Source of the DNA: Symbiodinium sp. CCMP2592
Lineage: Eukaryota > Sar > Dinophyceae > Suessiales > Symbiodiniaceae
NCBI GenBank assembly: GCA_905221615.1
Contig: CAJNDT010005534.1
Span: 62,001 to 126,000 of the forward strand
DNA length: 64,000 bases
Direction of reading: 5' to 3'
Below the pieces are notes generated by a model. That model searched no databases, was not told where the DNA came from, and worked only from the letters and a program-made list of their open reading frames with translations. This document shows positions 115 to 53,705 of the stretch, piece after piece. The stretch's first letter is position 1. Every line of letters begins with the position of its first letter. Both the position numbers and the translations under genes were made by a program.

Positions 115-172
115 TTCCCTACTCAACCCTAAACCCTAAACGCTTATAGATCCCTTTAAAGGAACCCTAAGA

Positions 173-205
173 GCCCTAAATTAAGGGTCCCTCCTTTTTC
201 CCTTT
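173..205. repeat. Solo arm of group O
   Basis: A single right arm (AAGGGTCCCTCC...) without a partner, 60 bp after copy 1. Probably a remnant. Confidence 0.4.
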
Positions 206-275
206 GATTGGGGCTCTGGCCAAAGTGGGTGGAGAGACCCAACCCAGGCTCTTGATATCTGCCTCGGAGGGACCC

Positions 276-402
276 TACTTGGAGGATCAGGGGACTTAGT
301 AAGTTAGGTTTTGATAAAGGTTCCTTAAAGGGATCTATAGGGTTCCTTAAAGGGATCTATAGAGTTCCTTAAAGGGATCTATAGAGTTTAGGGTTTGTGG
401 TC
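276..402. repeat. Q module attached to an A element
   Basis: Begins with a copy of the A-element arm TACTTGGAGGATCAGGGG. Then come three units of about 22 bp containing TTCCTTAAAGGGATCTATAG, then TTTAGGG-like sequence, then the real A element at 403. The arm is therefore repeated directly on both sides of the module. See the finding on composites. Confidence 0.6.
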
Positions 403-526
403 TACTTGGGAGGATCAGGGGACTTAGTAAGTTAGGTTATAGGTATCCCTAATTGAGTTAATAGTAATTATAAGTATATTGCCTTGATTATAACCCTAGT
501 TACTAAGTCCCATGATCCTTCAAGTA
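403..526 (-). mobile_element. MITE group A
   Basis: Inverted-repeat element of 124 bp. The left arm is GGAGGATCAGGGGACTTAG and the right arm ends ATGATCCTTCAAGTA. The core is made of TATAAGTAATTATAAG-type steps. The two arms differ in a fixed way in all A copies, so orientation can be read; this copy is reversed relative to the 5260 copy. Confidence 0.7.
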
Positions 527-3597: not shown

Positions 3598-3721
3598 TAC
3601 TTGGAGGGGCAGGGGACTTAGTAAGTAGGCCATAAGTAGAGTTATAAGCACCCTAAATGGAGTTACCCCAATTATAACTTTACTTATAAACGGCTTACTA
3701 AGTTTCCTGCCCCTCCAAGTA
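3598..3721. mobile_element. MITE group B, copy 1
   Basis: Near-symmetric arms TACTTGGAGGGGCAGGGGAC and its complement. The core GTTATAAGCACCCTAAATGG is related to group A. Its right arm is repeated directly about 100 bp further right, enclosing a Q module. Confidence 0.7.
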
Positions 3722-3824
3722 GACCCTAAACCCTAAACCCCATAGATCCCTTTAAGGAACCCTATAGATCCCTTTTAGGAGCCCTTTCAGAACCCTGAAC
3801 CCTAGTCCCCTGCCCCTCCAAGTA
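3722..3824. repeat. Q module attached to a B element
   Basis: CCCTAAA units, then two to three ATAGATCCCTTTAAGGAACC units, then a second copy of the B right arm (CCCCTGCCCCTCCAAGTA). Mirror arrangement of the copies at 22173 and 29808. Confidence 0.6.
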
Positions 3825-10180: not shown

Positions 10181-10886
10181 GCAAGTAAAAAATAATTCTA
10201 AGTACCCTAAAGGGGATCCTAGTTGCGGTATTGAGACTTATACCTCTCTACTTACTGAGTCCCCGGATCCTCCAAGTAGGCCAGAGGGCCCGACTTGAAC
10301 CCCAAATATACTCCTAAAACCAAAAGGCTGACCCCCCCCCAAAAAAAAAAAAAAAACAGCAGAAACCCGGACTCTCGGCTCCTTCGCTGAAAGCTTAGAG
10401 GTGTTAGGGCTTTGTGGGGATGTAGCCTCTGTCGTTGTTGCTTAAGGTTTAGGGTTGAGGCTTAGGATTTAGGGTTTAAAGTTTTTAGGAGTTTAGGAGT
10501 TTAGGGTTTAGGTAGGGATATAGCATCTGATGTTGTTGGGTAAGGGCTTAGGGGCGGGGTAGTGTGCAGTACCGAAAAAGTGTGGGCTGTGTTTGCAAGT
10601 AAAGATACGCTTCAGGTGCCAAGGGTTTGCGGTTCGGAACTCGTACAATGGAAATACTGCTTGCAGTAGCCCCTTGAATGTAGTTCTACAATAAACAATA
10701 AGAGTACGTTTTGAAATGACAAAATCATGCGGAGAGAGATCATTCAGGAATAGACCTCCAATTCAAGGGTGCATTAGGCTCTCTGGGTTCAGGGGTTCGA
10801 CTGAGGTATCCCTTGGCTGGCCGCTGGCCTCGTGCATTCGGGGTCAGAGGCGATGGCAATGCGTGCCACCTGGAAGTGCTGATGCA
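10181..10886. other. Spacer with telomere-like tracts, no gene recognised
   Basis: Contains half an A arm near 10250-10275, an A homopolymer at about 10341-10357, and TTTAGGG-like degenerate sequence at 10440-10520. An 80-codon plus frame at 10716-10958 runs into the H element and looks like noise. Confidence 0.4.
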
Positions 10887-13536: not shown

Positions 13537-14155
13537 TACCCATAGGCCCCAAAGTTCCGTTTTGGGAGTACCTTATCGAACTCTCTATAGTTCCTTCTTG
13601 GGATTACCTTATAGAACTCTCTATAGTTCCTTCTTGGGATTACCTTATAGTTCCTTCTTGGGATTACCTTATAGAACTCTCTATAGTTCCTTCTTGGGAT
13701 TACCTTACAGAACTCTCTATAGTTCCTTCTTGGGATTACCTTATAGAACTCTCTATAGTTCCTTCTTGGGATTACCTTATCGAACTCTCTATAGTTCCTT
13801 CTTGGGATTACCTTACAGAACTCTCTATAGTTCCTTCTTGGGATTACCTTATAGAACTCTCTATAGTTCCTTCTTGGGATTACCTTATCGAACTCTCTAT
13901 AGTTCCTTCTTGGGGTTACCTTATAGAACTCTCTATAGTTCCTTCTTGGGATTACCTTATAGAACTCTCTATAGTTCCTTCTTGGGATTACCTTATAGAA
14001 CTCTCTATAGTTCCTTCTTGGGGTTACCTTATAGAACTCTCTATAGTTCCTTCTTGGGATTACCTTATAGAACTCTCTATAGTTCCTTCTTGGGATTACC
14101 TTATAGAACTCTATATATGAACCACAAAAAAGATCTACTTTGGGGCCTATGGGTA
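13537..14155. mobile_element. MITE group E carrying an internal minisatellite
   Basis: The outer ends are typical of group E: TACCCATAGGCCCCAAAG at the left and CTTTGGGGCCTATGGGTA at the right. Instead of the usual core of about 50 bp, the element contains a tandem array (see 13554). Total length is about 619 bp against 95 bp for the E copy at 40198. Confidence 0.75.
13554..14117. repeat. 36-bp minisatellite, 16 units
   Basis: The unit reads TTCCTTCTTGGGATTACC then TTATAGAACTCTCTATAG. Sixteen units, one shortened to 24 bp. The first half matches the inner left arm of E elements (TTCCGTTTTGGGATTACC-type). Because 36 and 24 are multiples of three, frames on both strands stay open for over 200 codons; these repeated peptides are artefacts unless expression is shown. 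Confidence 0.85.
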
Positions 14156-22172: not shown

Positions 22173-22272
22173 TCTGAGGGGCAGGGGACCAGGGTTTAGG
22201 GTTCTTAAAGGGCTCCTTAAAGGGATCTATAGGGTTCCTTAAAGGGATCTATGGGGTTTAGGGTTTAGGGTC
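22173..22272. repeat. Q module attached to a B element
   Basis: Starts with GAGGGGCAGGGGACCAGGG, a copy of the B arm. Then TTCTTAAAGGGCTCC and two TTCCTTAAAGGGATCTAT units, then TTTAGGGTTTAGGG, then the B element proper at 22273. Confidence 0.6.
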
Positions 22273-22505
22273 TACTTGGAGGGGCAGTGGGCAGGGGGCT
22301 TAGTAAGCTGTTTCTAAGTAAGGTTATAATTGGGGTAACTCCATTTAGGGTACTTATAACGAGTGTGGGGGCAATGGGCGTAGCACCTCACAGTTGCGCC
22401 GGTGCGCCGCATGCAACTCGGATGTGCCGAGAAGCCAGTGCGCCGTTGCGCTTATAGCTCTACTTATAGCCTACTTGCTGTAAGTCCTCTGTCCTCACAG
22501 ACTAG
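22273..22505. mobile_element. MITE group B interrupted by an insertion
   Basis: Left arm TACTTGGAGGGGCAG with an internal GGGCAG duplication. B core up to TTAGGGTACTTATAAC at 22360, then a foreign segment, then the remaining core from 22451 and a decayed right arm. Confidence 0.5.
22361..22450. other. GC-rich insertion inside a B element
   Basis: About 90 bp, clearly richer in GC than the element around it, with CACAGTTGCGCCGGTGCGCC and GCCAGTGCGCCGTTGCGC, which are partly repeated. Origin unknown. Confidence 0.45.
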
Positions 22506-22586
22506 ACCCAAGAGTACGTAACCTAGGAATAAAAAGGGTACTGCAAGGGTTCCTTGAAGGGATTTATAGGGGTTATAGGGATTAGG

Positions 22587-22692
22587 GACCCAAGAGTAAC
22601 CTAGGAAGAAAAAGGGTGGCCTTTTTGGTTTAAAGGGGCTTGTAAGGGAACCTGAACCCTACAAAAGGGAATAAGGGCTTACTCTAGGTCCT
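22587..22692. mobile_element. MITE group R, copy 1
   Basis: GACCCAAGAGTAACCTAGGA at the left and TTACTCTAGGTCCTAG at the right, with inner AAAAAGGGTGGCCTTTTTGG and CTACAAAAGGGAATAAGGG. A partial second left arm precedes it at 22505-22550. Confidence 0.5.
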
Positions 22693-26831: not shown

Positions 26832-26941
26832 TGGGAGTTTCCGAAAATAGGGGACCCTAATATAGTACCCTAAATAGTAGGATCCTTATTACAAGGACCC
26901 CCAAATAAGGTACCCCCCCCCAGTTTTCGGGGAAACCCCCA
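26832..26941. mobile_element. MITE group H, copy 2
   Basis: TGGGAGTTTCCGAAAATAGG pairs with CCAGTTTTCGGGGAAACCCCCA. Core TAGTAGGATCCTTATTACAA. Confidence 0.75.
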
Positions 26942-27111
26942 AAGTAAGTTCCTTAAGAAGAACCTTTACAGATCCCTTTAAAGGAGCCCTGATAGGTACC
27001 CCGAAGTTCCCACATCGACATCCACAGCACTCCCTCAAAGCTTTGCACAGTAGGGAGGTCTGCGGAGCAGGCCTCGTTCACGGCCCGGTTCACCTTCGCC
27101 ATGTTTGCCGG

Positions 27112-29189: not shown

Positions 29190-29302
29190 TACTTGAACGT
29201 GGGACTTAGTAACTATAGGGTTCTTAAAAGGGCCCCTTAAAGGGATCTGTAGGGGTTCCTTGAAGGAATCTATAGGGTTTAGGGATTAGGGCGATTAGGG
29301 TC
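29190..29302. repeat. Q module attached to an A element
   Basis: Begins TACTTGAACGTGGGACTTAG, a shortened copy of the adjacent A arm. Then TTCTTAAAAGGGCC, TTAAAGGGATCTGTAGG, TTCCTTGAAGGAATCTATAG and TTTAGGGATTAGGG, then the A element at 29303. Confidence 0.6.
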
Positions 29303-29430
29303 TACTTGAAGGATCATGGGACTTGGTAACTACGGTTATAATTAGGGTAACTAACCATACTTATAATTACTTATAACCTCAGTTAAGGTACTTATAACCT
29401 AACTTACTAAGTCTCCTGGTCCTCCAAGTA
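29303..29430 (+). mobile_element. MITE group A
   Basis: TACTTGAAGGATCATGGGAC and GTCTCCTGGTCCTCCAAGTA arms with the full A core. Right-hand partner of the Q module. Confidence 0.7.
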
Positions 29431-29807: not shown

Positions 29808-29903
29808 TACTTGGAGGGGCAGGGGACTAGGGTTTAGGGTTCTTAAAGGGCTCCTTAAAGGGATCCATAGGGTTCCTTAGAGGGATCTATGGGGTTTAGG
29901 GTT
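29808..29903. repeat. Q module attached to a B element
   Basis: TACTTGGAGGGGCAGGGGAC arm copy, TTTAGGGTTC, three AAAGGGATC(C/T)ATAGG-type units, TTTAGGG, then the B element. Nearly the same as the 22173 module. Confidence 0.65.
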
Positions 29904-30027
29904 TACTTGGAGGGGCAGGGGACTTAGTAAGCCGTTTATAAGTACGGTTATAATTGGGGTAACTCCATTTAAGGTACTCATAACTCTACTTACAACCTAC
30001 TTACTAAGTCCCCTGCCCCTCCAAGTA
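29904..30027. mobile_element. MITE group B, copy 3
   Basis: Intact symmetric arms TACTTGGAGGGGCAGGGGAC and complement, core GGTTATAATTGGGGTAACTC. Confidence 0.75.
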
Positions 30028-34748: not shown

Positions 34749-34943
34749 TACTTGGAGGTTCATGGGTCGTTCTAAGTGGGGCTGTAGGGTTCGTTTAAGG
34801 GTTCCTTTAAACGGCTCTATAGGGTTTAGGGTTTAGGGGTTTTGGGTAGCTATAAGTGGGGTTATAAGTCCCCTAATATGGGTTATAATTATAGCTACCC
34901 TACTTATTATCCCTACTTATAACCAATTACCAATGAACCTCCT
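34749..34943. mobile_element. MITE group C with Q module
   Basis: TACTTGGAGGTTCATGGG arm, then a Q-type core (AGGGTTCGTTTAAGGGTTCC, CTCTATAGGG, TTTAGGG), then the C element from about 34842 (GGGTAGCTATAAGTGGGG) to CAATGAACCTCC. Same architecture as the A and B composites. Confidence 0.55.
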
Positions 34944-45623: not shown

Positions 45624-45775
45624 TATACAGCAACACATAGAGTTTATATGGGATTACATATTAGGGTTTTCATGGTCACCTGACCATCATGATGTCCCAT
45701 ATACAGCAACACATAGAGTTTATATGGGATTACATATTAGGGTTTTCATGGTCACCTGACCATCATGATGTCCCA
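45624..45775. repeat. Perfect 76-bp tandem duplication
   Basis: Copies at 45624-45699 and 45700-45775 appear identical. The unit includes ACACATAGAGTTTATATGGG and a hairpin-prone CATGGTCACCTGACCATCAT. Not obviously related to the MITE groups. Confidence 0.85.
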
Positions 45776-46618: not shown

Positions 46619-46713
46619 TAGCACCCTTTAAAGGAACCCCCATAGCACCCTTTAAAGGAACCGCTATAGCACCCTTTAAAGGAACCCCTATAGCACCCTT
46701 TAAAGGAACCCCT
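46619..46713. repeat. 24-bp tandem repeat, four units
   Basis: Unit TAGCACCCTTTAAAGGAACC plus four bases. Resembles the ATAGATCCCTTTAAAGGAAC unit of Q modules. Since 24 is a multiple of three, both strands stay open (APFKGT-type and FKGCYS-type peptides), an artefact. Confidence 0.75.
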
Positions 46714-50131: not shown

Positions 50132-50248
50132 TACTTGGAGGATCAAGGGACTTAGTAAGTTAGGTTAGTTAATGGAAGGTATAAGTAATTATAAGTATGG
50201 TTACCCTACTTATAACCGTAGTTACTAAGTCCCATGATCCTTCAAGTA
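50132..50248 (-). mobile_element. MITE group A, reversed
   Basis: TACTTGGAGGATCAAGGGAC and GTCCCATGATCCTTCAAGTA arms. Followed by a Q module. Confidence 0.7.
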
Positions 50249-50333
50249 GACGCCAATCCCTAAACCCTATAGATCCCTTTAAGGAACCCTACAGATCCCT
50301 TTAAAGGAGCCCTTTTAAGGAACCCTTCAAGTA
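50249..50333. repeat. Q module attached to an A element
   Basis: CCCTAAACC, two ATAGATCCCTTTAAGGAACC-type units, AGGAGCCCTTTTAAGG, then a short copy of the adjacent A arm (CCCTTCAAGTA). Confidence 0.55.
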
Positions 50334-53418: not shown

Positions 53419-53522
53419 TGGGAGTTTCCCAAAATAGTGGATCCTTATACAGTAACCTAGATAGTAGGATCCTTATTATAAGGACCCCCAATTAAGGTAC
53501 CCCTATTTTCGGAAACCACCCA
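53419..53522. mobile_element. MITE group H, copy 5
   Basis: TGGGAGTTTCCCAAAATAGT and ATTTTCGGAAACCACCCA arms, core TAGTAGGATCCTTATTATAA, flanked by AA on both sides. Confidence 0.75.
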
Positions 53523-53615
53523 AATAGGCATGCCAAGGCCAGCACGTACTTGCCGTAAGGGAAGTCGAACTGCGGAAGGGATTCGCCTGTCTACTGCAAC
53601 TCGAAGGGGTCGAAA

Positions 53616-53705
53616 CGGGAGTTTCCGAAAATTAGGGGTATCTTTTCATAAGGATCCTACCATTTAGGGTACTGTAGTAGGGTCCCCTCTTTTGGGAAAC
53701 CCCCA
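53616..53705. mobile_element. MITE group H, copy 6
   Basis: CGGGAGTTTCCGAAAATTAG and CTTTTGGGAAACCCCCA arms, core AAGGATCCTACCATTTAG, flanked by AA on both sides. Only 93 bp from copy 5, in opposite core orientation. Confidence 0.7.

Follow-up and report, generated by a model that had tools for sequence, protein, structure and literature searches.

Tc1-like elements of the inverted repeat/direct repeat (IR/DR) kind carry direct repeats inside each inverted repeat, and retroposons that integrate by target-primed reverse transcription show target duplications of variable length and a simple-repeat tail at the 3' end. In Medicago, the MtPH-A6-4 elements of the PIF/Harbinger group have subterminal variable repeats for which abortive gap repair has been proposed and which, in the part of the paper drawn on here, belong to one subfamily (PMC2213677). 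The interstitial telomeric sequences (ITS) of vertebrates, including TERC-ITS, combine telomere-type repeats with a non-telomeric block and, in the portions of two papers used here, are described as inserted in a single step at breaks, with microhomology reported, with rare target duplications (6/130 rodent and 4/25 primate loci) and with no excess near transposons (PMC2246262, PMC8537989). The Medicago and the vertebrate cases are the nearest published ones that we found, and both differ from the composite described here, in which a block of tandem units (Q) with a TTTAGGG tail lies between two direct copies of one arm of a miniature inverted-repeat transposable element (MITE). The composite was studied in a window of 64,000 nucleotides from Symbiodinium sp. 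CCMP2592 (assembly GCA_905221615.1, contig CAJNDT010005534.1, positions 62,001 to 126,000; C4938:62001-126000 in our numbering) and in the genome to which it belongs (1.098 Gb, 5383 contigs). According to the part of a review used here, TTTAGGG is the dinoflagellate telomere repeat (PMC11453091). A literature search, with subscription papers outside its coverage, found nothing with this plan. What appears to be new is a single tailed repeat, in one polarity and with the arm duplicated, across unrelated MITE families; related kinds are known.

In full, the plan consists of an outer direct copy of the arm, Q units of 22 bp, TTTAGGG and then the element. A preliminary description had reported it at seven places, always beside an element of one of three arm types (A, B and C). 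All seven places were read, and the composite proved to be real and more general than had been described. The full plan holds at five of them (276-526, 3598-3824, 29190-29430, 29808-30027 and 50132-50333); those beginning at 22173 and 34749 are degenerate. The supposed confinement to A, B and C did not survive: the composite is not tied to these elements, since the same plan occurs in seven MITE families and at a few sites where no MITE was recognised. The families with an arm copy are F1 (CTTGGAGG), F2 (CCCAGAGA), F3 (GGGAGTTTCC), F4 (AAAGGGGAAAAGG), F5 (TTGATGATATAAATCC), F6 (GACCCAAGAGTAACC) and F7 (CTTACC/TAGGGAATGG). The F1 elements have the character of MITEs, being mostly about 120 bp long with terminal inverted repeats and a short target duplication, and arms in four elements of the window measure 42-56 nt. 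The TA target duplication that is the hallmark of Tc1/mariner or Stowaway elements was found, as a two-base match on both sides, in 44/73 F1 elements (5.3 expected) and in 15/22 of F2. In all the DNA examined, some ten MITE families could be told apart by their terminal sequences.

Counts come from three samples. Sample (a), 224 kb picked without regard to Q, comprises the window, the adjacent 60 kb and ten random 10-kb pieces, these last drawn from 25 contigs known through Q matches. Sample (b) holds the search-ranked Q loci L002-L041 minus L007 and L008, and sample (c), used for validation, 23 loci spread along contig order and taken from exact matches to a Q 24-mer, of which there are 1774 genome-wide (control 0). 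Excluded from the counts are L001, L007, L008, L042 (a Q array) and L082. The dinoflagellate spliced leader had 429 exact matches in the genome (control 0). In the 224 kb, TTTAGGG together with CCCTAAA reached 5.2/kb, and eight permuted heptamers averaged 0.14/kb.

Q takes one orientation towards MITE ends. When up to 6 mismatches to known ends were accepted, a MITE lay 3' of Q at 15/32, 41/72 and 20/28 blocks in samples (a), (b) and (c) and 5' of it at 1, 4 and 2, the per-point background for a MITE end near Q being 0.051, 0.097 and 0.161. The result that the preliminary description had named as fatal to it, Q cores equally frequent with and without a MITE arm, did not occur in sample (a), with its background of 5%. 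Looser matching in the same sample (up to 9 mismatches) gave 20/32 on the 3' side and 6/32 on the 5' side over a background of 0.13, and a test for an inverted partner that uses no family words gave 45/92 and 8/92, with 4 of these 8 positive on both sides. Starting from the 274 arms of sample (a), Q stood just inside the arm 13 times forward and once in reverse, and just outside it 14 times forward and once in reverse. Exact genome-wide patterns of outer arm followed by Q, which cover F1 and the unrelated F5 only, gave 118 forward and 2 reverse matches for F1 (both reverse matches being one string) and 266 forward and 0 reverse for F5.

The earlier view that chance is not responsible is upheld by the arm copies themselves, as direct repeats in the expected geometry (score at least 9) accompany 52/132 Q blocks against 12/310 displaced controls. 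The 52 scored duplications are 11-47 bp long with a median of 28 bp and quartiles of 22 and 33, a few of the extremes being telomere-like or due to chance. An earlier, looser test (score 12) gave 37/92 Q blocks and 4/80 displaced controls, and also 33/354 between different loci, where same-family arms match one another. From the other direction, a search of the 224 kb that began with arms returned 23 tandem same-family arm pairs, of which 14 had a gap of 50-105 bp; Q lay inside 11 of the 14, and the three remaining pairs were a tandem MITE copy, a case of TTTAGGG without Q, and a complete MITE with a weak second arm behind it. Generic filler DNA is disfavoured as the main account by the presence of Q in these 11/14 cases. 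A stricter search on exact 11-mer triples yielded 32 clusters. AT-rich simple repeats or MITEs lying next to each other made up many of these, and the Q flag of the search was too loose for them to be counted. It is highly improbable that two MITEs stood in tandem around Q and the first was deleted down to its arm, or that the parts are adjacent by chance; a genuine tandem pair of MITEs lacking Q occurs at L047, but neither the polarity of F1 and F5 nor a common duplication length would be expected. The duplicated arm had been said always to match the arm that it adjoins, and this is mostly right, with exceptions: at informative columns the outer arm equals the adjoining arm 35 times and the far arm 19 times, and by locus it agrees with the adjoining arm in 11, with the far arm in 4 and with neither informatively in 2, a further 2/19 loci having been dropped for want of a far arm.

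Q consists of tandem units of 22-24 bp (22 bp in the window), followed in most MITE cases by the TTTAGGG tail. No more than 30 nt separate TTTAGGG from the 3' end of Q in 63/80 blocks with a MITE and 19/52 without, and from the 5' end in 4/80 and 9/52. Of the F1 ends that have Q on their outer side, 10/10 show TTTAGGG-like words no further than 45 nt away, and the tail comes with Q, at least in F1, because F1 ends without Q show TTTAGGG near the background level (10/76 against 1040/9812). MITEs that target TTTAGGG, and land beside Q for that reason, are disfavoured for F1 by the same 10/76, in either direction, over a background of about 10.5%. Telomere-like arrays without Q are also disfavoured as a cause, having no flanking duplication (2/145 at a score of at least 10, control 1/145). 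A likeness was noticed between CTTAAAGGGATC and CTTGAAGGATC, and Q units may perhaps be tandem arm copies. At L042 (C3668:992802-997410) Q forms a tandem array of about 2.6 kb in which the orientation switches.

Compared with known systems, the composite is like IR/DR elements in that the end is repeated directly about 100 bp further in; it is unlike them in that the direct pair is at one end in the cases read, apart from Q at both ends of a single MITE in L077 and L037, in that several MITE families are involved and in that the simple form without the second copy is commoner. In geometry only, it recalls the growth of CRISPR-type repeat-spacer arrays, a repeat of about 28 bp being duplicated around an insert and sometimes reiterated, although here the host is a eukaryote and the inserts are of one sequence type. 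Unlike the MtPH-A6-4 repeat as presented in the part of that paper used here (PMC2213677), Q is one repeat type shared by F1-F7 and by sites without a recognised MITE, is mostly telomere-like-tailed, keeps one polarity and has the arm on both sides. With vertebrate ITS it shares the combination of telomere-type repeats and a non-telomeric block; it is no pure telomeric insert, the duplication is common and is absent at arrays without Q, MITE ends are a main site, and microhomology is not established (compare the portions used of PMC2246262 and PMC8537989).

We propose that Q is a block inserted at exposed MITE ends by end-primed synthesis on a Q-tailed template, a tentative reading to which we assign a probability of about 0.37. 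A nick or cut by transposase would bare a 3'-OH on the strand whose end lies at the MITE end; for DDE transposases as a class it is established that the strand left with a 3'-OH is the one to which the tail would be attached. The bared 3'-OH would prime synthesis on a template with a TTTAGGG-rich end, which would place the tail at the MITE end and fix the orientation of Q. The duplication of the arm is seen directly, and we suggest that it arose when the newly made strand, at its far end, joined the other strand about 20-35 nt inside the arm, so leaving two arm copies. Because the outer arm retains a MITE end, some composites would still multiply, and the shared junctions described below indicate that they do so as many-copy families and occasionally as tandem arrays. 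The tail at the MITE, the single polarity and the duplication of about 28 bp together fit end-primed or target-primed insertion. Among 100 listed places of the 118 F1 matches there are 62 distinct strings, in which the outer arms end at several points, for example after CATGG, CTTAG, AGTA and AGTAAG, and this variety speaks for repeated formation. The preliminary description had suggested a repeatable process or a mobile composite. Both are borne out by the polarity, the several arm stop points and the shared junctions; as to the kind of process, sequence alone does not single out arm-primed synthesis, abortive transposition or repair.

A number of observations weigh against end-primed insertion. 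Duplication of the same kind also occurs where no MITE end was recognised (L031 with 25/26, L065 with 25 bp, L014 with 16/17), which implies that transposase is not always needed, and in L015 an 11-bp duplication lies just outside a MITE. No recognised MITE accompanies 52/132 Q blocks, only 19 of which have the tail, and at the ends of families other than F1 the tail is within 45 nt in 4/12. In most F1 composites the start of the inner copy coincides with the MITE end; in F2, F3, F4 and some of F5 and F7 it lies several bases further in, so that an exact transposase cut is not general. Later deletions could mimic varied arm end points, and composite copies that share an origin cannot be taken as separate events, which makes the counts higher than the true number of events. 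Microhomology between arm and Q at the outer junction, which both end-primed and repair models lead one to expect, is not established by the comparison of all 62 distinct F1 strings with random junctions: overlap reaches at least 1 nt in 29/62 and at least 3 nt in 22/62 (random junctions 66% and 36%), with a gap in 31/62. Among the 31 gapless junctions 22 reach 3 nt, which is above the null in what is a selected set. No transposase, RNA or enzyme has been identified, a Pfam scan of 20 open reading frames having returned one weak zinc finger only and no genome-wide transposase search having been made. On the minus strand of L056:3580-10000 there are open frames of 996, 616 and 465 aa with no Pfam match at 0.01.

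The MITE-less duplications at L031, L065 and L014 are also what would be seen if Q were an ordinary retroposon with a TTTAGGG tail and its own endonuclease preferring MITE ends. The body with a simple-repeat tail and the variable duplications (their extremes partly spurious) agree with this, and Q resembles retroposons of target-primed reverse transcription in both respects. It is unlike them in its one orientation to MITE ends and in being known here from DNA alone. We consider the retroposon rather unlikely, since a target chosen by its sequence cannot account for one orientation at MITE families of unlike sequence, and since Q blocks without a MITE have the tail less frequently (19/52, against 63/80 with one). 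Many further Q blocks without a MITE have no flanking direct repeat.

The chief rival is repair synthesis with template switching, that is, abortive gap repair after MITE excision or at a hairpin-stalled fork, in which a growing strand, having copied part of the arm, switches to Q DNA at another site, copies this as well and then returns to the MITE end. We hold it to be somewhat unlikely. Abortive gap repair is the explanation that the authors of the Medicago study give, in the part used here, for the MtPH variable repeats (PMC2213677), and irregular composites are in its favour: in L027, L021 and L004 the outer copy begins within the arm or the MITE interior or lacks the arm start, which plain target duplication does not explain. 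However, a free choice of template predicts varied inserts, and in the arm pairs described above most inserts are Q, tailed on one side. The repeated return to the MITE end also has no explanation in template switching, which in addition shares with end-primed synthesis the difficulty over microhomology.

Identical junctions at different loci imply that composites multiply as units. The three C composites of the window have one common junction in dissimilar surroundings, one F1 junction recurs on many contigs among the listed places, and F5 shows mostly one or two junctions among 100 places listed of 266. In three F5 loci picked by their outer pattern (L084-L086), the inner arm and its inverted partner were present in all. 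Viewed by eye as whole inserts, the composites at 276-526 (GGGACCC-TA-AACCC) and 50132-50333 have joined flanks that are telomere-like. Large groups with common junctions would also be expected if arm and Q were an inherited subterminal module that spread among families by gene conversion, and the elements L077 and L037, with Q at both ends, point the same way. This we judge improbable, given that no common arm sequence is evident across families for conversion to use, that arm end points vary inside one family and that MITE-less cases exist. No paralogous pair of full and empty sites was seen among the matches listed for the loci examined, many of which were Q self-matches, and this is not a strong negative. 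Extrapolated roughly from 13 outer copies in the 224 kb, the number of composites in 1.1 Gb would be in the tens of thousands; this is an order of magnitude only, as 124 kb of the sample consist of the window and the DNA next to it.

Two or more arm-Q units occur in L003, L010, L028, L075 and L081. L083 (C1112:2160150-2161350) has nine head-to-tail F5 arm-Q units, mostly 91 bp apart and without the TTTAGGG tail; one unit is followed by an extra stretch of Q without an arm, and beyond a tenth arm F5 sequence continues until the piece ends. This is a small satellite born from a MITE end, most simply through unequal exchange. It is conceivable, though quite doubtful, that Q parasitises transposition itself, as a tailed RNA or DNA primed by the 3'-OH ends that the transposase of any MITE bares and thus riding on unrelated families; it would leave the end copied a second time on its own outer side and would sometimes turn MITE ends into arm-Q satellite arrays. 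One insert type in one polarity at unrelated MITE ends may record a natural outcome of incomplete cutting of transposon ends. It would offer a high-copy system for the fate of exposed transposon ends, the origin of some telomere-like repeats and the birth of satellites from MITEs.

Table 1. Parts of the composites and related arrangements in the window (positions counted from its first nucleotide; TRF, Tandem Repeats Finder).
Feature	Position	Strand	Remarks
Outer direct copy of A-type arm, 36 bp	276..311	+	36/37 columns equal inner arm
Q core, three 22-bp units GTTCCTTAAAGGGATCTATAGA	320..388	+	TRF, 97% matches
TTTAGGG-like tail and linker	389..402	+	Ends GGTC
MITE, left A arm, right B arm	403..526	+	TA at each end
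C-type MITE	3598..3721	+	Q beyond its right end
Q core of the 3598 composite	3732..3782	-	
Outer C-arm copy, 22 bp	3803..3824	-	
Worn outer C arm, Q, TTTAGGG tail	22173..22272	+	Q at 22211-22258
C-type element	22273..22505	+	Right half altered
Outer B arm, Q, tail	29190..29302	+	Arm with small deletion; tail ends GGGTC
MITE, left B arm, right A arm	29303..29430	+	
Outer C arm, Q, tail	29808..29903	+	
C-type MITE	29904..30027	+	
D-type composite	34749..34943	+	A fourth kind of arm (TACTTGGAGGTTCATGGG) besides A, B and C; one worn Q unit, worn inner arm
A/B MITE	50132..50248	+	Q beyond right (B) end
Q core of the 50132 composite	50259..50309	-	
Short outer B copy (TACTTGAAGG), 8-10 nt	50324..50333	-	
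Unrelated MITE family, same plan	120..207	-	Arm copy, Q (about 138-163), TTTAGGG tail, inner arm
Another MITE family, same plan	22505..22620	+	GACCCAAGAG..AACCTAGGAAG arm copied around worn Q
Q at end of unrelated MITE family	26940-27010	-	Arm copy worn at best
Q at end of unrelated MITE family	46631-46703	-	Without clear arm copy

Apart from these composites, two pairs of F3 MITEs have between their members one and the same stretch of about 80 bp of non-MITE sequence, in opposite orientation (53419-53705 on the plus strand and 10296-10500 on the minus strand). The window (1-64000) contains 165 inverted-repeat pairs within 600 bp, a 36-bp tandem repeat of 16 copies with 92% matches at 13553-14117, and a perfect direct duplication of 76 bp at 45624-45775.
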